Assembly: GCF_052324685.1 (NCBI RefSeq) | Contig: NC_135226.1 | Coordinates: forward strand, 21,550,251 to 21,614,250 | Reading direction: 5' to 3' | DNA: 64,000 nt | Source: Brachyhypopomus gauderio | Lineage: Eukaryota > Chordata > Actinopteri > Gymnotiformes > Hypopomidae | Shown here: positions 23,101 to 57,279 of the stretch, one piece after another | Numbering within the stretch: position 1 is the stretch's first letter | Layout: each line of letters starts with the position of its first letter | Notes under the pieces: model-generated | What the model was told of the DNA's origin: nothing | The model's input: only the letters and a program-made list of their open reading frames with translations | Databases searched by the model: none | Program-made: the position numbers and the translations under genes

Positions 23101-26100
23101 TCTGTGCATTCAAAGGTACAAATCAACATATTTTAGAAAGATAAGAGGAAAATTAGGCTAATATGGTTTTCCAGTAAGTAGTAAGCAGAGAGAAGAACTA
23201 AACTGGAAGGAAACCATCTTAAATAAATACCTCATATACATTCATTTTTCAACCCTATCAAATCAATACTGCACACCAAGGAACCTAAATCTGTGTTTTC
23301 TTTCTAATTAGGTTAAACTCTCTCTTCTAAATAGACAATGTACACATACAAAGAATGTCCTATAAACACACAAAGACGAGTCATTGTAAAATTGTTCAGA
23401 ATTTCTCCCCCTTTTGATGTAAAATGTAATGGAGTTGTGCAAGACTTTGCTACCAGCAGTCAGAAAGCTGATGCCCACCTACATAGGCCCTGTCCTTCGG
23501 TGTCTCCTCCCACACACTCTGACTCCTCCCACACACCATGTCTCCTCCCACACACTCTGACTCCTCCCACACACCATGTCTCCTCCCACACACTCTGCAT
23601 TTTTGCTTTCTCGGCCATTACCAGTCTGTGCAACCTAGCAAGAGAAAACTATCTAGCAAGCAAAGCTCTAGTACAGCCAGGCCAGTTGTACAGTGACCTA
23701 TAACTGGTGTCTGTTGGATGGCTTTTCTAAGGGTGCATGTTTAGCACATGCTTAAGCAGTGTTTTGTAATATTTTTATTTTTATTGTTTATTGCTGTGCT
23801 GAATGATGTATGATATATCACTCTAGTTCAGTATCATACAAACGTTCATATTTTTAATATGTATTCTGGATCTTTAAAGTTATATATTAAATTGCAATTG
23901 TCAAGATGCTAAAGAGCTTCCAGTTTTAAACCAATGTTTAACCAAACAGGAAGCAAATATCAATGAAAGTCATATGTCAGGTCAGAAAGCAGGCGGTATC
24001 TCTAATGCCACCGGCGCTGAGTGAACGGATGGTGGACACAAACGCTGAGAAGAGTGAGATTTAATACGGGCAAATCCATAATCACGAACATCGTCATGGT
24101 CCAGTATCAAATAGCCAGGGAGATCAGAACAGAAACACGACTAACACGAACTACAGGGGCATACAACAGGGAGATCAGAACAGAAACACGACTAACACGA
24201 ACTACAGGGGCATACAACAGGGAGATCAGAACAGAAACACGACTAACACGAACTACAGGGGCATACAACAGGGAGAAAACAGACCAAAATACCAGACAGG
24301 GCAAAAACAAACCACCAAAGACTCCTAGAAACTGTAAACCAGACCATACCTGCAAATAACTATAAGGCTGTATAACAAACAAATGATCACAAGGGGCGTG
24401 GCTACAAATGACTGGGGCGTGGTAGGAGAACACATGGGAAAACCAAAACATGAGCACATGGAAAAACAAAACAGAGGCATGACTGACAGGTGGGCGGGGC
24501 TAAACGTGACACTATAATGAACTGGTTCTTTGGCCGTTCTAATGATGTCCTGCAGATCCAGGTTAATCTTCACATATGTCCCTGATACTACTGCCAATTC
24601 ATATGTTTGGCTGATACAAGTTCTGTTTTTTTTTCAGGCTACATTACAGCGTTTGCTGTAATACTCAGAACTACAAACAAAGACGTGTGGGCAAATGAGT
24701 TTGAGCGTAAGTTAAAAAGCAGACCTAGTACAGACCTAGTAGACCTTATACAGTTCATCATACCTGTTCATGCTGTTCATCACCCTGCTGGTGAAACCAT
24801 TAACACTGTTTACTCTTATTTATTTCTTATTTGAAGCAATTGAATTGACCTGCCTGATAGAATCGATATCTACAAACAATCCCAGGATTGAATGGAAGAA
24901 AATAAAAAATGGGGTTCCCAGTTATGTATATTTTCAAAGCAAAATATCAGGTAACTACTAACATTCAGATCTTGATATTTGATATTAAAGGAGACATAGT
25001 AAACAAAACCTGTCGAGCCAACTCCTGCATGGCACAATGGATCTATAAGCTCAGAAATCTTGGAGTGATTCCTTTTTTATGGAGAGCACGAGATTCTCCA
25101 AGCTGTTGGGATCTGCTGCCTAGTGTGACATCACATGTAGCAGATGTAGTCACGCCCTCACAGTAAGCACTCACAGTAAACACAGTGAACACTCACAGTA
25201 AACACTCACAGAGAACACAGTGAACACTCACAGTAAACATTCACAGTAAACACAGTGAACACTCACAGTAAACAGTGAACACTCACAGTAAACACAGTAA
25301 ACACTCACAGTGAACACTCACAGTAAATGCAGTGAACACTCACAGTAAACACAGTGAACACTCACAGTAAACACTCACAGGAAACACAGTGAACACTCAC
25401 ATTAAACACAGTGAACACTCACAGTAAACATTGAACACTCACAGTAAACACTCACAGAGAACACTCACAGTAAACACAGTGAACACTCAGAGTAAACACT
25501 CACAGAAAACACAGTGAACACTCACAGTAAACACTCACAGTAAACACAGTGAACACTCACCGTAAACACAGTAAACACTCACAGTAAACACAGTGAACAC
25601 TCACAGTAAACACAGTGAACACTCACAGTAAACACTCACAGTGAACACTCACAGGAAACACAGTGAACACTCACAGTAAACACAGTGAACACTCACAGTA
25701 AACATTCACAGTAAACATTGAACACTCACAGTAAACACTCACAGAGAACACAGTGAACACTCACAGTAAACACTCACAGTAAACACAGTGAACATTCACC
25801 TTAAACACAGTAAACACTCACAGTAAACACAGTGAACACTCACAGTAAACACTCACAGTGAACACTCACAGTAAACACAGTGAACACTCACAGTAAACAC
25901 AGTGAACACTCACAGTACACACTCACAGAGAACACAGAGAACACTCACAGTAAACACTCACAGTGAAAACTCACAATAAACACTCACAGTAAACACAGTG
26001 AACACTCACAGTAAACACAGTGAACACACAGTAAACATTCACAGTGAACACTGACAGTAAACACTCACAGTGAACACTGACAGTAAACACTCACAGTGAA

Positions 26101-29100
26101 CACTCACAGTAAACATTCACAGTAAACACAGTGAACACTCACAGTAAACAGTGAACACTGACAGTGAACACTGACAGTAAACACTCACAGTGAACACTCA
26201 CAGTAAACATTCACAGTAAACACAGTGAACACTCACAGTAAACAGTGAACACTCACAGTAAACACTCACAGTGAACACTCACAGTAAACACTCAAAGTGA
26301 ACACTCACAGTAAACACTCACAGTGAACACTCACAGGAAACACAGTGAACACTCACAGTAAACACAGTGAACACTCACAGTAAACATTCACAGTAACCAT
26401 TGAACACTCACAGTAAACACTCACAGAGAACACAGTGAACACTCACAGTAAACACAGTGAACACTCACCTTAAACACAGTAAACACTCACAGTAAACACA
26501 GTGAACACTCACAGTAAACACTCACAGTAAACACAGTGAACACTCACAGTAAACACAGTGAACACTCACAGTAAACACTCACAGAAAACACAGTGAACAC
26601 TCACAGTAAACACTCACAGTAAACACAGTGAACACTCACCTTAAACACAGTAAACACTCACAGTAAACACAGTGAACACTCACAGTAAACACTCAGTAAA
26701 CACAGTGAACACTCACAGTAAACACTCAGTAAACACAGTGAACACTCACAGTAAACACAGTGAACACTCACAGTAAACACTCACAGTGAACACTCACAGG
26801 AAACACAGTGAACACTCACAGTAAACACAGTGAACACTCACAGTAAACATTCACAGTAAACATTGAACACTCACAGTAAACACTCACAGAGAACACAGTG
26901 AACACTCACAGTAAACACTCACAGTAAACACAGTGAACACTCACAGTAAACACAGTGAACACTCACAGTAAGCACTCACAGTAAACACAGTGAACACTCA
27001 CAGTAAACACAGTGAACACTCACAGTACACACTCACAGAGAACACAGAGAACACTCACAGTAAACACTCACAGTGAAAACTCACAATAAACACTCACAGT
27101 AAACACAGTGAACACTCACAGTAAACACAGTGAACACACAGTAAACATTCACAGTAAACACAGTGAACACTCACAGTAAACACTCACAGTGAACACTGAC
27201 AGTAAACACTCACAGTGAACACTCACAGTAAACATTCACAGTAAACACAGTGAACACTTACAGTAAACATTCACAGTAAACACAGTGAACACTCACAGTA
27301 AACAGTGAACACTGACAGTAAACACTCACAGTGAACACTGACAGTAAACACTCACAGTGAACACTCACAGTAAACATTCACAGTAAACACAGTGAACACT
27401 CACAGTAAACAGTGAACACTCACAGTAAACACTCACAGTGAACACTCACAGTAAACACTCAAAGTGAACTCTCACAGTAAACACAGTGAACACTCACAGT
27501 AAACACTCACAATAAACACAGTGAACACTCACAGTGAACACTCACAGTAAACACTCACAGAAAACACAGCGAACACTCACAGTAAACACTCACAGTGAAC
27601 ACTCACAGTAAACACTCACAGTAAACACAGTGAATACTCACAGTAAACAGTGAACACTCACAGTGAACACTCACAGTAAACACAGTAAACACTCACAGTG
27701 AACACTCACAGTAAATACAGTGAACACTCACAGTAAACACAGTGAACACTCACAGTAAACACAGTAAACACTCACAGTGAACACTCACAGGAAACACAGT
27801 GAACACCCACAGTAAACACAGTGAACACTCATAGTGAATACTCACAGTAAACACAGTGAACACTCACAGTAAACAGTGAACACTCACAGTAAACACTGAA
27901 CACTCACAGTAAACACTCACAGAGAACACAGTGAACACTCACAGTAAACACTCACAGTGAACACTCACAGCGAACACTTACAGTAAACATTCACAGTAAA
28001 CACTGAATACTCACAGTAAACACTCACAGTAAACACTCACAGTAAACATTCACAGTAAACACAGTGAACACTCACAGTAAACACTCACAGTGAACACTCA
28101 CAGTAAACACAGTGAACACTCACAGTAAACACAGTAAACTCTCACAGTGAACACTCACAGTAAACAGTAAACACCGTGAACACTCCCTTGCTGCAGCTGT
28201 AGATTCAGTGTGCTTCTGTATGAACAGCAGGGCTTTACACCTTTACAAAGTGCACCATGCCCGTCACTCAGGCAACCAACGAGTAGTGTACACCTTCACA
28301 GTCTAAAAATAGAAGATTAGAATATCTGAATATATTTTTTATTCTGCAGATATATTTCAAAGAGCTGTGTTGTGAAAGAAAAAAATGTGTCTCCTTTAAT
28401 ATTACTGCAAGTTAAGCTAAACATCCAAAAATTAAACCTCTTAAACCATTCGGTTTGTTAAAAGGACAGCGCTGGTCTTGAAGAATGATACATGTTCCTC
28501 CTCCAGGAGACCTCGAGGACAGAGGTGTGTTACGAGAACCTGCTAACCTACTGATCCTGAATGCCAGTAGATCAGACAGCGCCCTCTACAGGTGTGAGGT
28601 CGCCGCCATCGATGACCAAAAGCCCTTTGACGAGATACTCATCAGCTTGGCTGTAAGAGGTACTTTCCTCTGCTCCTGATTGTGGGTGTCTCTGTATCGT
28701 TGGTGCGCGGTGGTCTCGGCCAATAGCAAACGAACGCTCTGCCTCTCATTGGGATGCACAGTGAAGCCGGTGGCCCCCAGGTGCAGCGTGCCGGACTCCG
28801 TCATCGTGGGCTCCACGGTGGAGCTGCGCTGTAGTGAGAACGAGGCCTTTCCCCCGGCACACTACCAGTGGTACCGCAACACAGAGGAGCTGCCCGAGGA
28901 GCCCAAGACCAGCGCCCGCTTCTACAACTCCTCCTACGTCATGAACACCCAGACGGGCTCGCTGGTACAGCTACACAATCGTTTGCTTTTTCTAACATTT
29001 ACATTCTACTTATTACTCCATTTGATGACCTTACAGAAACCAATGTTTTTATGATACTAACAATTTCATGTGTGTGTGTGTGTCTATGTTTATTATAACT

Positions 29101-39896: not shown

Positions 39897-41277
39897 TTAT
39901 ACCGGATCAGTGTCTTCCAAAGTCAAGACAAAGTCAAATTCATCTAAGAACAAAAACAAACAAAAGCCAATCACATCATGAAAAAATTGTTCTCAAAATA
40001 TTTGATGAATATTGCTTTGTGGTGTTTCAAATGCATTGTTACATTTATTGTAAGGCAACATTACAGTTTTTTTTAACAATCCAAAATGTACCTTTACAAT
40101 GCTACTGAAGTGTTTGACAAAAATATAAGTATACCAATAAAGAATGGGAGGTTCTGGCTGTGTGACTGACCTGGTGTTAACGGCTGGACCGACAGTCTGG
40201 GCCTGGTGAAGAGAGCCAGGCCTCGGAGTGGACCACCTGTGCTCTTGTGTTTCAAGTGATATTTCTTCAGCTCAGCGAGTGGAATGAAACGCTTGGTCAT
40301 CCTCTCAAACTTGACATCCACCTACACACACATGAGTTGACCGGTAGAATTCAGCGAACACTCATCTGTGAAACACCATCATTAATGATCATTATAAGTT
40401 ACATTGACTGCTATCTTATTTCTTGCGCCTACCATAATCCATTTAGGATTTTCTGGTTTGCTAGAAGGATCGTAATGCACATCTTTCTTGTCAAACTGTG
40501 TGTGGTCAACGTATGCTTCCTTCACAATCTGGAACATTAATTGCACAGTTGGCTTCTTCAAAAGATGAAAAGAATGAACGCTGGATTGTGATCTCTAGAG
40601 AGGCACGTTCACCTTCATTAACCCAGCTATGCCAGGTTCTTTACAGTTGCTGTGATAGAAGAAGGCCTGGTGGTCCACCCTCATCTCCTTCATGAAGTTA
40701 CGCGCCTGGACGGAAATGAAATGGACTGGAATCAAATATAAACAACATCAATGTGTGAAACGCTGCACTGCTGATGGAGAGATGCATCATTTCTGTTTTT
40801 TTTTTTTACCTGGTAGTTTCTCACTCCATCCCAACATCCAGTCTGACCAGGAAGACCTTTGAGGTCTTCAATTCCAAACTGAAACATGAATTTATGGGAC
40901 ACCCATGTAAACACTACTTTCTGCAAACACTTGATGGAGATCTTGGTGGGGTGGTTCACCTTCACATCCACTCCGTTCTCAAGCCGACTCTCTGGTTCAG
41001 ACTTCATTAACCAGTGACTGTATGATGTTCCTGACGAACCGTCTCTGGTGTTTCTCTCACCCTCGGGTTGTTCTGCCGATTCCTCCCTCTTTCTTTTGCG
41101 GGTTACGTTCCTGGCCACAGTGGTCTCTGAAGACCCTCCAGGGACAACATCACCTGCGGGGCCGAGAACATTTGTTTCACCACCACATAGTGCAGTTTTA
41201 CTTCAACACACGTGTGCACATCTCTCACTTTTCTTACCGGGTTTCTGCGCCACTCGTGTTCTTTTCTTAGGCGACAT
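39897..41277 (-). CDS. thyn1: thyn1, thymocyte nuclear protein 1 (seven exons)
   Basis: Exons in order of transcription: 41277-41238, 41153-40960, 40878-40810, 40705-40613, 40528-40433, 40321-40171, 39943-39897 (TAA). Phases agree at every GT-AG junction, giving 229 residues (human THYN1 about 225). The N-terminus is basic and low complexity (KKRTR, RKRKRE), a probable nuclear signal. An EVE domain then starts at SHWLMKSEPESRLENG and runs through CWDGVRNYQ, FFYHSNCKEPGIAGL and KRFIPLAELKKYH to LSVQPLTP. The tiny last exon encodes EFDFVLTLEDTDPV. EVE domains resemble YTH folds and are thought to bind modified nucleic acid; THYN1 is nuclear and linked to apoptosis. It is head to head with acad8 over 334 bp. 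An in-frame run-on past exon 2 and exon 6 is intronic, because splicing restores the conserved protein. Confidence 0.93.
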
Positions 41278-41611: not shown

Positions 41612-46045
<4,434 letters not shown>

Positions 46046-47477: not shown

Positions 47478-50297
47478 TTAAACGAGAGGGCTAAAGTGTG
47501 ACACTCTGAGCTGTTGAGGGTGACCATCACTGAGATTAGCAGAGAGCAACGAGCCCTTTGACTGACGTCTCTCCGATGGATCCATAATCATCCTGAAGAA
47601 AAAACAAAACAAAAAAAAACTGATTTGTACTAGTACCTGATCCTGCAGGCCCGGGCTGGTATTTGACTAACACACCTGAAGTGGTTCTCGGCGTGTCGCT
47701 GAGGCCTTTTCTTGTAGCAGAGGAAGTGTGTGGTCACCGCCCCCACCAGTAGCAGGAGAAGGAACACCCCCATCAGCACCCCACCAACCAGCGCTGCGTC
47801 ACCACCATCTGACACACATCACAGCTGCAGGGAACGCTCCGGGCTATAGAACACTCTTCAACTGGACTCTGGTGAGGAGGGTGTGATGTGCTACTCACGG
47901 GCCACTTTAACCGCTACGCTGCATGCCTCCACGCCCAGGGCGTTAGACGCGTGGCATATGTACGTCCCCGCGAAGGCGGCCGAGAGGTTGGTCAGGATGA
48001 GGGCGCCGGTGTGCCGATCTGGAACACAACGTTTACATGTTTCCCTTTAAGCGGACACTCCTACCCAGATGTCCCTGTGGTCAATAAACGAATAACGTCA
48101 TTCGTTCCAAATCGCACAACAGTATGATGAAATGTACGTGAGACTGGACCACACAGGTCACAGAAGAGCACAGAGGATTTAAAATATCAAGAGACGTCTA
48201 AAAGTCTCGACCGAACAAGCCAAGCAGTTTAATGTTTGGTTGGCAAACAACCACCCACTGATTTCAAAAGGTCGCGATACGGCAGGAGTGGACTGTGTGT
48301 GTCACGCTGACCCAGAGGGCTTCAGCTGAGGACAGAGGTCTCCAAAGGTATCAACACGTATTTATAGACATTTAAGGAATTTAGTTGGTGCCTCGATTCA
48401 AAATGACTTCGAATTATGAGTGAATACAATTTAGAAGAAACTTGGTGTGGCTCAAACTGGTAACTGCTTACCAACCAAGTAGCTTAACCCTTGTGCTAAC
48501 CATAGACATACAGCACCTTCCACAACACTGCTGGAGGGCAGAGGCTCTGACATCTCTCGACTCCAGGAATAGATGGGTGTTGGAAACCCCTCTGAGCTCC
48601 GACACGTCAGTGTGACGTCGTCTCCCACGTAGGTGCTGCCAGTCAGCTGACATTCTGGCACAGACGGTGCAACTGCAGGAGACGTGAGAGACGTATTTAG
48701 GTACACGTGAGAGACGTGTCCAGAGTATTTAGGTATAGGTGAGAGACGTGTCCAGAGTGTTTAAGTACACGTGAGAGACGTGTCCAGAGTGTTTAGGTAC
48801 ACGTGAGAGACGTGTGAATATTTAGGTACACGTGAGAGACGTGTCCAGAGTATTTAGGTACACGGTGATGCAGACTGATGTTACATAGTGGTCTTCATTG
48901 GTCACCTTTTTAACTGATATATTGAAATATGCAGTGTTTATGTAGGAATAGCACAGTAGCACAACAGAAGCACCTCATCAGACTTCTCACCTAGTGTAAT
49001 CAGGCTGATCAGACACTGTCCCACCTAGCACAGTCAAGTTGATCAGACCCTGTCCCGCCTAGCACAGTGTTAAGTTGATCAGACCCTGTCTCACCTCTCA
49101 CCTACCACAGTTAGGCTGATCGGACCCTGTCCCACCTAGCACAATTAAGTTGATCAGACTCTGTCCCGCCTAGCAGTTAAGTTGATCAGACTCTGTCCCG
49201 CCTAGCACAGTTAAGTTGATCAGACTCTGTCCCGCCTAGCACAGTTAAGTTGATCAGACTCTGTCCCGCCTAGCACAGTTAAATTGATCAGACGCTGTCT
49301 CACCTAGCACAGATAAGTTGATCAGACCCTGTCCCACCTAGCACAGTTAAGTTGATCAGACCCTGTCCCACCTAGCACAGTTAAGTTGATCAGATGCTGT
49401 CTCACCTAGCACAGATAAGTTGATCAGACGCTGTCTCACCTAGCACAGTTAAGTTGATCAGACCCTGTCCACTGCCAGCCCAGTTGTTCGGATTGGTGAC
49501 GTCACATATATACAGTCCGCTGTCAGATGGCTGAACGTTGAGGATCTTCACAGAAGCAACGCCGTACACTGGAGGGTTCTGCACCAACACCATCCTCTGC
49601 TCCCACGAGTCCGCCCAGTAGAGTCTCCCGTTGTAGTACAACACCTACATGAAAAACAAGTCCCACTAATTAAAAAGCATTACAACTGCTAGTGATTGGT
49701 TGAAGTCTGGGTCTGACGGGACAGCTCACCCTCTCCGCGTGGACGGCGGGCGTCCCGGGGGCAGCGTAGCGCCACTCCAGGGTGAAGCCGGGGGAGATGA
49801 GGGTGGTGTAACTGCAGGGGAGCTCCGCTGGGTATCCATCACGGGCAAACACTGAACTTTTCACCACAACCGCCTCCCACGACCACGCCTCGTCTGCCAG
49901 AGCAAAGGGACGACTACTGTTGTTTTCACGTTCAGACTTGAAGATCTTGGTACAGATGTTCTCAAAGAGCAATATGCTATCACATTTGAGCTGATAACTG
50001 ACATTTATTGGTCAACCTCCAATATTAGTCAATCATGTAAATAGTACAAATCAGACAATCTATGCCTGAGAAAGCACTAGATAAATGCTACTGAAACAGA
50101 CAAATTTTTCAGAGAAACCTAACCTTCAAGACTAGCTTTATACAGCCCGCAAACTTTATTTAGTTTTGAAAATGAAAAGACTAAGACTGTTTCTAACCCA
50201 TGTTTTCCGGAAGCAGTGAATGTCAGGGAAATAATTCTCACTTACCAAAACACTGAATCAAAATCCACAAGACGAACACTGTGTAATGGTGAGCCAT
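47478..50297 (-). CDS. vsig2: vsig2-like, V-set and immunoglobulin domain protein (seven exons)
   Basis: Exons in order of transcription: 50297-50246, 49893-49730, 49644-49440, 48672-48517, 48018-47899, 47808-47676, 47592-47478 (TAA). All phases agree, giving 314 residues (human VSIG2 about 327). Residues 1-18 are a signal peptide. The V-set domain runs to about 140 (Cys in ELPCSY and YICDV), with VLVQNPP and GLINLTVL very close to human VSIG2. A C2-set domain spans about 141-232, with the canonical pair in LTCRSS and YICHAS and the additional CTX-family pair in PECQ and EACSV. A membrane segment lies near 237-261. The short cytoplasmic tail ends HFSPLV. VSIG2 is an epithelial surface protein of poorly known role. 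Adjacent esam on the same strand repeats the human VSIG2-ESAM pairing. The last exon is the least conserved and rests on phase. Intron 3 holds copies of the exon 3 end. Confidence 0.82.
48690..48865. repeat. 32 bp array next to the vsig2 exon 4 acceptor
   Basis: About five units like GTGAGAGACGTGTCCAGAGT plus GTTTAGGTACAC, starting about 20 bp upstream of vsig2 exon 4. Confidence 0.85.
48995..49439 (-). repeat. 34 bp array derived from the vsig2 exon 3 end and donor
   Basis: About 13 degenerate 34 bp copies lie directly downstream of vsig2 exon 3. On the minus strand each carries GTCTGATCAACTTAACTGTG and then CTAG with GTGGGACAG, GTGAGACAG or GCGGGACAG. The exon itself ends in the same coding sequence (for GLINLTVL) and donor. 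The exon is conserved in VSIG2, so it is the likely source of the array. Confidence 0.88.
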
Positions 50298-52188: not shown

Positions 52189-55100
52189 CTACACGAGCGA
52201 CCCGGCCTGATTCGGACAGGGCAGCACGATTGGCACGGCGCCCATGTGAGACAGCGCGGCACAGACGGTGAAGGGCAGGGCGGGGCAGAGAGCCCTGGGT
52301 ACGGAGCCACTGTCTGAGATCACGGTGGGTGGTTGTGGGCGAGCTGGGCGGTGGTGAGTGAGGGTGGAAGCCTTACCCCCGTTATACCCGGGCAGCCCGT
52401 GGAGCGGGTTACTGCCCGCTGGGTCCCCCGGGCCTAAGGGGTAGGCTACGGTGCTGCCGGACGCTGTGAGCACGGAGGAGGTGTGGCATGTCCCAGGGGG
52501 GTATGGGTACAGCACATGGGGCGTGTCCTGTGGTGGAGGGCTGGTGGAGAACAGTGGGCCGTTCTTGGAGACGATGTCGGAGCTGGTGGCGCTCCGGGCC
52601 CAGGAGACCATCTTTGGAGCTTGGGCATCTTCCCTGTAAGAGGAAACCACACCCATCAGGGGGAAACCACACCCATCAAGGGGAAACCACACCCACCAGG
52701 GGGAAACCACACACCGCAGACCCCAAAAACTTTTTTTTTTTTTTACATGGGAGTAACCAATATTCCATTTAATGCAGGATGCAGCACCATTGCACTGATC
52801 ATGAGGCTGACAGGACTACAGACCTGGGCTTGGGAAGGGGTGTGGCTTACTTTATGTCATTGGCTGTCTCCTCCTCCTCGTTGTCGTGGCTCCTCCTCAG
52901 GATGAAGGTGAGGAAGAAGAGGAGGCCGGCGAAGCCCACCAGCGAGCCCAGGGCGGCTCCAGCGGTCAGCCAGGTGTTGTTGGCTACACCCGGTGGGTGG
53001 GGGTGGGGGGAGGGTGGTGTTAGTTACTGGGGTCCGGGCGACAGGGCGCTGCTGGGAGAACTGACCTGTGACGGATACTTACGCGTGGACACATCCAGGA
53101 TGACGTGGCAGCTGTCGCTGCCGGCCGTGTTGCTGGCCCTGCATACGTACTTGCCCGACATGCCGAGGGACAGGTTGACCAGCCTGAGGGTTCCCTGCTG
53201 CTCGTCTGGAAACACGACAGAACCGGGCGGCCTTAACCAGCGCCACACTCCCCAACACAACCGCACCGCACAAGCTGGACGTGATTCAACACATTAAAAA
53301 ATAATAATCCTGCCGGTTGTGCCAAGACTGTCGTCCTAATGAGTCCCACGGTGTTCAGTAGCGGAGGAAATACATACAAAAACATAGAAGTGAAGAGGCA
53401 TTTAAAAGACGGACCCTCCCCAGGGAACAGAGCCATGGAGACCTGCTGCTCTCTGACAGGCAGACAGAATGTCCCACACGCTCACAGCATCATAGGGACA
53501 GGAGATCTGGAGGATGAGATGATTTAAGTTATAAATAGACCCGGGACACTATGGCAGTTTTGCTAGTATTACTGGACAGGCAGAGACTTGCACACACTGA
53601 GCACCTGTCTGCTAAGGTGAGTCTCGTCTCTCTCTGATTGGCCAACTGCCTGTTGGAGGTGAAGAGCTCTAAGAAGCTGGAGTTTAGCTGCTGAATCTAA
53701 TCTTTCACTGGTCATTGTAATTTTATTCACTGACATAAAAAAAAAATACAGATCAATCTAAAGCAATATCTACAAGCCAACGCACACCGAGTTCTCAAAG
53801 CACAGGCAGTATATGTCTCTGCACTACTGGTTTAACCTCATTTATCTATCTGACACAAAGAGATCCTATTAGAGGATTGATGTAGGTCTATACACAGAAA
53901 TGACATGTGCTACCACCTCAGCCAAGAGCAATACTTAATATATTTTCCTACAACGATTCAGAATTAATGGGGATTTATTTGAAGAGCTGCAGTAGAACGC
54001 TCATTCGCACAGAAACATCTGCCTGTACGTTGGGAGTGACACACAGACTTAGGAAGTTCTAATGCCACGTGTAGCTCAAGCAGAATTGGACGGGTTTTCC
54101 TGTAGGCTACATGGGCGGACGGGCAGGGAACATGACCCGGGGCCTTACCCAGGTAACCCAGCACGAGCTCGGGCCAAGGACACGACCTCACCTCTGCAAA
54201 AGCGGTAGAGATAAAGAGTGTCAAGGTTGTGTGTGTGCGCACGTGTGTGTGTGAGACAGGGAAAGAGTAGAGACACGGAGGAGGAGAAGGAAAGATGGGG
54301 AAGACAGACAGAGAGAGAAAGAGAGACGAGCAGGACAGCACAGGAGATGCATTATTTATTCAGAGGAGACTGACAGTGATGGTGTGCTGGGTTCGTTCCC
54401 CTCAGTACTGCAGGTTGAAAGAAACGCCAGTCCACATGAGTCCCAGGTGTCTGGGAGAGGAAGGTATTCAGCGCAAGACTGAGGAGATGCAGCACACAGC
54501 TGGCACTGACGTTTATGATCACTCAAGATTTGCACTAAAAATAACCAACATTAAAACATTCAGAAGACCTAAAGACCTAAAGACCTAAATGACCTAAAGA
54601 CCTAAATGACCTAAAGACCTAAAGACCTAAAGACCTAAAGACCTAAAGACCTAAAGACCTAAATGACCTAAAGACCTAAAGACCTAAAGACCTAAATGAC
54701 CTAAAGACCTAAAGACCTAAATGACCTAAAGACCTAAATGACCTAAAGACCTAAAGACCTAAGACAACAAGACCCAACAAGACCTAAAGACACAAAAATA
54801 GTTCTGCTTTTAATTCAGGTGTTTTTTTTATGGTAAGATTTCAGTTGGTCATTCCGTGAATGAAAAATACAGTTTATATGATAAAAACACATCTGTAATA
54901 CTGATCATTAAGTACAAAAAAGGAAATAACAAAAAGTAAAGAAAAAACAGAAAAGAAAGCACATAACCCTTTATGCGACTGCAGGACCGTTCAGAAAGCC
55001 GTCAGCCAGTACACGACAGGACACACGACAGGACACACGACAGGACACACGACCGACTGGCTAAACGATCACCAGCTGAGATATAGAGGCAGCATCTCAT

Positions 55101-57279
55101 ATGATTTTCAGGATCTCTGCTATCTCAGAGAATTAATGAGCTCGCCCTGAGCCGAGGGGCTGGGACGGTGTCCAGTTATACACATATGACCACAAAACGC
55201 CCTCTGGTTCTGTTTTAGATTGAGGCTGTAAACCAGCGTCCCATTTGGATTTAATTCATAATCCCTGCCGACGGCTAGAGAGACTTCTCCATAAAGTGAA
55301 TGCCATTATGTCATAAACTTTTCCAGTAACTGTTACAATAACCAAATAGTTCTCTGTAAGAACATCCATTATTCTAGTTGTTTAGGAAATGATGCGTCTC
55401 TTGTTAGACTGGAGGTATTAGATATAGTTATAACTGTTTTAGATTATTATTATGGAGAATGGGCTCATGTAATTAGAAGTGTTCAGTCACACAGAAGGTA
55501 AAAGGGAACTGGGTATGTAGCGCTATAAAAGATGAAACAGACTCACTCTGCGTCGGAGAGAAGAACACCTCTGAGAGGGGAGCCGCCCTGGTCCAGCGGT
55601 ACTGAGGGACGGGTTTTCCGTAGCTGGACTTACAGTTGAGCGTTACGTTGCCCGTCACCACAGGGTCACCAGTCACGGAGCACGTGGGGGTGGAGGGCGG
55701 CACTAGAGATACAGAGAGGCACCACAGATCCCATCACCACCTGTTCCAGCCATACTAAGTCTAACAGTCATCCTGCTAGGAACACCAGTCATATAAACGA
55801 CAGTAACGGGACATGGGGTCCGGACCCGGCCGCGTACCCTTCACACTCAGCCTGAGCTCCCCAGACAAGCCCGGCGCCCCGGGCACGATGACGTTGCAGA
55901 GGTAGCGGCCCGAGTCCGTCTCCTCCGTGCTGTTGATGTAGATGGATAGATTGGCCGACGGCATGGGTGCAGCAAAACCCACACGCCTCCAGAACTCAGG
56001 GCTTCCCATTCCAGTCTGGCCTGACGTGTAGGAGATGATCTGTTCCATGACGAGACATAAACGACACCATCAGCAAAGCCTCGGAGAGCACGGACCTGGT
56101 ACTGGAACCGGTACAGAGATACGCTGCCTTGGACTGGTTAGTACTGACCAATTTTTCACCTGAAATGAACGCTCTAGCAAAGCAGTGAGTGGGCAATAGC
56201 AGAATAATTAATGTTTAATTTGGAAAGCATATGCTTTGAGGACATTAACGTAACACTGAACCATTTAGTTTAGCACAGATAATTGTCCTAATAATCTAAC
56301 TGCAGTTAATCTTTACTGACGGTCCCTTCAAGGAGGGAGACCAGTGTGAGTTCATTATAATTATATTCATGCGATGCGCACCAGTGATTACAGGAGGCCA
56401 CAGTTACGATTTGTAATTTGAGATAAGCGGAAGAGTTTCACTTGTGTTCGGGCTCATCATAATCACCACACAGATGACACAAGCATGACAACATAGAGGC
56501 AGAATGCGTAGTGGAGATGTAATGATGAAGCTCACCATGAAAACATCAACTCTGCTTTAATATATAAAACAAAGGTATTTGACATCAATCAGAAAGGTCT
56601 GGAGTTACCAGAAGGAGGCAGCCTGTGTCTGGTCTAAACATCCATATTACATATTACACACGTCTATTGTAATCCCTAAATTATCACTTTATGATTCTGA
56701 TTAAATCATGTATGACAGTACATGAATTTCCAAGAAACTACAAGATGTATTTCCTATTCTAAAAGATTTAGGATAACTGCTCCAGATCATCCTGACATTT
56801 GGCCGTCATTTTTATCCAGAGCAAAACACATCTTTAAGTTTGATAACAGCCATACTTCCTTGGGAATGAACCCACTGACTTTGCTGGTTTTAGCACTCTG
56901 GACTACAGTAATTCATGGGGGATGGAGTCCAAACTCTCATATTGTTCACATCTGAACTGCACTCGTATGATGGAGGTCCTACAATAATGAAATGATCCCA
57001 CAGGGAGTCACGGTGAAACACAGGAACATCTATATCAGCGTCAGCCTTCACGATATTAGAGGCTGAGAACAAGTACTAAGAATGAAAAGATGTCAGGATC
57101 CTTCATCAGAGACGTGGAGATGTCGACACTCACTTGTTTGGAGTCGTTGGCCATGAAGTTCCAGATGACGGTGTTCTTCTCGATGGCGGATGTGGGCGTG
57201 TACCAAGCCTCCAGAAACACCACCTGGCCCCTGATTACCTCCAGGTCCTTCTTTGGCATTTCCACTCGCAGCGAATCAG
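52189..57279 (-). CDS. esam: esam, endothelial cell adhesion molecule (six exons seen, 5' exon missing)
   Basis: Exons in order of transcription: 57279-57134, 56039-55838, 55702-55547, 53205-53083, 52983-52851, 52633-52189 (TAG). Phases agree at every GT-AG junction, giving 401 codons plus stop. The V-type domain spans the first two exons (VVFLEAWYT, WNFMANDSK, SGRYLCNV). The C2 domain spans the next two (VPPSTPTC, VTLNCKSSYG, GKYVCRASN, DSCHVILDVS). The fifth holds the membrane segment (GSLVGFAGLLFFLTFIL) and ends ETANDIK, joining ED in the last exon. The proline-rich tail ends NQAGSLV, as in ESAM, whose tail binds MAGI-1. ESAM is a homophilic adhesion protein of endothelial tight junctions and platelets. 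The first seen exon starts mid-codon, so a signal-peptide exon is needed upstream. I searched donor-like sites on minus to 64000 and found none convincing. Confidence 0.88.
54560..54765. repeat. 8 bp GACCTAAA array in an esam intron
   Basis: About 25 copies of GACCTAAA, with interspersed ATGACCTAA spacers. It lies in the intron between exons 55547-55702 and 53083-53205. Confidence 0.93.

Follow-up and report, generated by a model that had tools for sequence, protein, structure and literature searches.

The vsig2 gene and the end of its third exon

The window, that is the whole 64,000-nt stretch of fish DNA that was analysed, carries a vsig2 gene on its minus strand. With a presumed human VSIG2 protein sequence as the tblastn query, we found 36 of 69 residues identical in exon 3, with the LTVL end at 49441, and 26 of 56 in exon 4, with the VPPS/VAPS start at 48673. 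Pfam, applied to exons 2-4, placed a V-set domain over exons 2-3 (E 7.9e-14) and an Ig_3 match starting in exon 4. As expected of vsig2, the product has a V domain ending in GLINLTVL, followed by another Ig domain and by a membrane segment that was recognised by eye in the translation. The gene model is as follows.

End at 49730, minus strand: vsig2 exon 2
49440..49644, minus strand: vsig2 exon 3, coding for the latter half of the Ig V domain, ending ...GQGLINLTVL + G in phase 1 (tblastn, splice sites, frame, Pfam)
49438..49439, minus strand: presumed authentic intron 3 donor GT (TAG/GTGAGA, 9.3 bits; phase-1 join to exon 4)
48673..49439, minus strand: vsig2 intron 3, 767 nt, of which 606 nt lie inside two minisatellites
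48517..48672, minus strand: vsig2 exon 4, starting (V)APSVPEC (tblastn, splice sites, frame)
47899..48018, minus strand: vsig2 exon 5 (splice sites from sequence)
47676..47808, minus strand: vsig2 exon 6 (splice sites from sequence)
From 47592, minus strand: vsig2 exon 7 (splice sites from sequence)

Joining 49440 to 48672 gave a single frame across exons 3-7, with 242 aa to the stop. The end of exon 3 is conserved between human (GLGLINLTVLVPPS, presumed) and fish (GQGLINLTVLVAPS), and the top PDB match, the coxsackievirus and adenovirus receptor (CAR, E 1.7e-14), aligned across the same IxLxVLVxPS stretch. The adjoining gene, which we take to be esam-like, has by reading a phase-1 intron of ~136 nt at the equivalent place, and the TRF list contains no array in that intron. 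As VSIG2/CAR homology, the open frame and the esam-like phase-1 intron agree, 49440 is very probably the true end of exon 3.

Five of the ten ORFs of the window that were searched had a Pfam match. The matches of the esam-like ORFs at 53027-53293 and 55476-55733 fell below Pfam's cut-off, and two ORFs that we presume to be jam-like had none; a 3-kb array of the CTCACAGTAAACA type lies between these two at 25157-28185. Acyl-CoA dehydrogenase domains were found by Pfam on the plus strand at 42294-44835, in what we assume is probably acad8, and an EVE-domain ORF at 40385-40594 on the minus strand is presumably thyn1.

A 34-bp minisatellite includes the exon-intron boundary

Two tandem arrays were found to occupy most of intron 3, and the first of them begins inside exon 3.

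49006..49470, minus strand: 34-bp minisatellite, 14 copies with the exon counted (TRF, units read directly)
49440..49470, minus strand: array copy 1, made up of the final 31 nt of exon 3, presumed source copy (TRF edge at 49470; identity with copy 4)
48693..48864, minus strand: second minisatellite, 32 bp, in intron 3, ending 20 nt before exon 4 (TRF)

The original prediction held that the end of exon 3 and its donor recur about 13 times at 34-bp steps, and TRF bears this out, with 13 further copies in the array (34 bp x 13.5 copies, 87% matches, 4% indels). These 13 copies take up more than half of intron 3, and copy length ranges from 31 to 41 nt where indels are present. Units that stand head to tail and fall within ~6-100 bp make this a minisatellite, a class in which length polymorphism among individuals is frequent but not required. 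A 24-nt core pattern matched 10 times at no more than 3 mismatches, always on the minus strand and between 49024 and 49462, with 0 matches in 100 shuffles. The exon-intron boundary itself, placed by homology and frame, lies within the array, 31 nt of exon 3 belonging to the repeat.

In the second minisatellite, the last unit resembles the pyrimidine tract of the acceptor (by eye). There is no sense-strand AG in this array, hence no decoy acceptors, and none between the AG at 48875 and the exon 4 acceptor. Tandem arrays cover 11,753 of the 64,000 bases (18.4%), counted from 21 merged arrays that were hand-picked out of 69 TRF rows and include dinucleotide runs; for medaka, stickleback, tetraodon and zebrafish, 1.7-5.0% tandem repeats, obtained by differing methods, are given in a killifish paper (PMC2688266). 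With random placement, the probability that at least one of the ten vsig2 splice sites falls in an array is 0.87, assuming independence, which is not quite true. At this density it would not be unlikely for an array to cover a splice site, and the overlap as such is unremarkable.

The unit was best read in a register starting GGACAGGG, which comprises 31 exon nt (codons GQGLINLTVL + G) and the intronic GTG. Read in this way, the exon copy with its GTG is identical to copy 4 at 34/34 positions and to copies 5 and 13 at 33/34, while copies 2, 3 and 6-10 share 30-32 of 34; the more divergent copies are 11 (30/41 aligned columns), 12 (32/36) and 14 (23/34), after which there may be a degenerate fifteenth piece (23/39). 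The exact exon head GGACAGGG is present in 4 of the 13 intronic copies (4, 5, 11 and 13), which favours this register over the unit first proposed, about 24 exon nt followed by GTGAGACAG. The older register, in which the original intron would have begun GTGAGACAG and the unit would combine ~24 exon nt with 10 intron nt, is the less probable choice. Copies 2, 3 and 6 have AGACAGC heads, as at the present intron start, and the exon GTGGACAG and the intron GTGAGACAG are alike and may have mediated slippage, but the GGACAGGG heads would then demand repeated convergence or conversion. The exact 9-mer GTGAGACAG follows only four sites, 49440, 49406, 49304 and 49095.

In the 31 nt + GTG register, what follows GTG in the real donor (AGACAGCG, +4 onwards) would itself be a repeat head, and the +4 to +11 bases of this donor resemble repeat DNA. 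It is thus conceivable, though rather unlikely, that the array overwrote the donor that it copied, the present donor being GTG plus a repeat head (AGACAG, from the exon codons GGACAG).

Several copies carry donors as strong as the real one

All donors in the array were scored, in bits, with an approximate human matrix. The sites are listed below.

49404..49405, minus strand: copy 2 decoy donor GT, 9-mer as in the authentic donor, 9.3 bits; +34 nt, frameshift
49302..49303, minus strand: copy 5 decoy donor GT, full strength (site 49304, 9.3 bits)
49093..49101, minus strand: pair of decoy donors closing copy 11, with last exon bases at 49102 (9.3 bits) and 49095 (9.97 bits)
48989..48990, minus strand: copy 14 decoy donor GT (GTGAGAAG), full strength (site 48991, 9.3 bits)
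49372, 49338, 49136 and 49025, minus strand: four GTGGGA sites, 6.74 bits each
49106, minus strand: extra weaker site within copy 11, 7.14 bits
49270, 49236, 49202, 49170 and 49059, minus strand: five GC sites, 0.11 bits each

Five sites in four copies score at least as high as the real donor (9.3 bits), so several units carry the donor consensus. The intact donor foreseen in the nearest copy, 34 bp beyond 49440, was found with the same TAG/GTGAGA, and decoys outnumber what had been stated. GC in place of GT, earlier stated for the other copies, is found in 5 of the 13 intronic copies, and the remaining eight keep GT. U1 duplex energies of the five strong decoys were -9.5 to -9.7 kcal/mol, compared with -9.5 for the real donor. 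Sites of at least the real donor's strength number 49 across both strands of the 64,000-nt window, from which 0.19 are expected in 485 nt; five, including the real donor, were counted in the 485-nt region of the array, and site 48991, cut by the edge of that region, raises the number to six. The donor of vsig2 exon 4 (AAG/GTGCTG, 48511-48519) is weak by this matrix at 3.67 bits, and all nine GT copy-end decoys are stronger.

The 13 copies show no sign of a purge of decoys. The change from GT to GC (T to C at +2) is only one of 19 distinct derived states, a count that includes two gap columns and excludes the inserts of copies 11 and 12, and 8/13 copies have GT; selection against decoys is thus unsupported.

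Use of a decoy would lead to a premature stop

Translation from 14 copy-end donors gave a premature stop in every case, with 177-820 nt left to the last junction. The frameshift of +34 nt that was originally predicted applies to the nearest copy (donor 49406), whose stop falls in exon 5, whereas the other 13 reach a stop inside the extension, at a TGA made by the copy 2 donor itself. Retention of intron 3 ends at the same TGA, and site 49106, which lies beyond it and was not among the 14 translated, would presumably reach that stop too. Under the usual 50-nt rule, stops this far before the last junction would be targets of decay. A decoy-spliced message would thus carry a premature stop and would probably undergo nonsense-mediated decay (NMD). 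Since all 14 donors lead to stops, decoy use would cost message without yielding a new protein, and the idea that the array adds new in-frame protein repeats was rejected.

Donor choice and origin of the array

Most likely, 49440 does most of the splicing and the decoys give low-level mis-splicing at most; this dominance is assumed because the coding frame is intact. No feature favouring the real donor over the decoys was found. The real donor had a predicted unpaired probability of 0.0017, and ten array sites (GC sites 49236, 49202, 49170 and 49059 and site 49106 being left out) ranged from 0.0004 to 0.023. The full-strength decoys 49102, 49095 and 48991 are predicted to be roughly ten times as open as the real donor (0.017-0.023 vs 0.0017), so local RNA pairing is unsupported as a means of concealing decoys. 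In DOK7, where two donors lie close together, SRSF1 is reported to be able to promote use of the intron-proximal one, nearer the acceptor. Both the open decoys and this precedent were counted against dominance of 49440.

A rival reading is a putative splicing rheostat, in which decoys would shunt a sizeable share of transcripts to decayed messages and array length or variants would set vsig2 output. In its favour, five decoy sites equal the real donor in strength, each with copied exonic context, three of them are predicted to be less paired, stops follow all 14 copy-end donors, and in human ABCA7 the length of an intronic VNTR is reported to track splicing and expression. The intact coding frame indicates instead that productive splicing is frequent enough to be kept, and we consider such a rheostat improbable. 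An assembly artefact, with the array or its copy number wrong, is very improbable: tandem arrays are commonly mis-assembled, but distinct variants, insertions and deletions set the copies apart, which simple stuttering would not yield. Least credible of all are ratchet (recursive) or dual AG/GT sites, for although all 13 intronic copies end in TAG followed by GT or GC, with AG abutting the donor, the pyrimidine tracts are weak (9-10 of 16 vs 13/16 at the true acceptor) and the distances short.

We therefore prefer a minisatellite born from the exon end, with the donor at 49440 dominant and the decoys causing low-level mis-splicing at most, followed by NMD, and give this explanation a probability of roughly 0.78. 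The founding event would have been a tandem duplication that took in the final 31 nt of vsig2 exon 3 and the first intronic bases, and the minisatellite would then have grown to 14 copies by slippage or unequal exchange; the exon copy would have retained its coding role, the remaining copies becoming intron. The exon end is conserved protein sequence, and is thus likely the source of the array rather than its product. The earlier proposal that the exon boundary seeded the array agrees with the conserved Ig V-domain exon end (shared with human VSIG2, as presumed, and CAR) and with the copies that have intact donors. Similarity to the exon showed no gradient with distance among the 13 copies (Spearman -0.20, p 0.52). 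As the nearest copies are not the most exon-like, no simple outward growth is visible and homogenisation must be assumed. The best reading is that the minisatellite is neutral or mildly harmful.

Relation to known systems and implications

Repeat units of the human IFI6 (6-16) minisatellite are 12 bp long and add codons in frame. The vsig2 unit differs: its 34 bp are not divisible by three, and stops follow 14/14 copy-end donors. Frame-keeping alternative donors, a trait of IFI6 and no requirement of the wider kind, are thus absent. The IFI6 exon 2 minisatellite is reported to supply several splice donors (Turri et al. 1995), and according to a citing paper two downstream repeat units are used and three mRNAs result. 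The vsig2 array is similar in having tandem units at an exon end, several of them with donor signals, but donor use is reported for IFI6, whereas the vsig2 decoys are candidate donors. Variable internal tandem repeats with units averaging 30 bp, some of them at exon-intron boundaries and altering splice patterns, are described in genes of human segmental duplications (PMC2812944). The vsig2 minisatellite is of similar unit size and also lies at such a boundary; those repeats belong to recent primate paralogs with transcript support, while the present one was read from the DNA of a fish gene. Length of the ABCA7 intronic VNTR is reported to correlate with splicing and expression (PMC5954066). 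Both it and the vsig2 array are intronic repeats, but the abstract on ABCA7 concerns exon skipping and mentions no repeat derived from an exon and bearing copied donors. Among the matches listed from the open-access literature, no title or abstract start names this vsig2 array. Because arrays cover 18% of the window, and multi-donor and boundary minisatellites are already in print, the vsig2 array is a clean case of a known type of event and its kind is unsurprising.

The array provides a natural ladder of near-identical donors in near-identical exonic context, in which position alone as the decider between equal donors would become measurable. Should all splicing go through the real donor, the array would give a measure of the resistance of exon definition to decoys. 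If alleles vary, a coding gene would have its splice donor under minisatellite turnover. If the donor was overwritten, this turnover would set both how strong an essential donor is and how many poison donors compete with it, and alleles could differ in productive splicing by A or G at +4 beside the exon (9.3 vs 6.7 bits).
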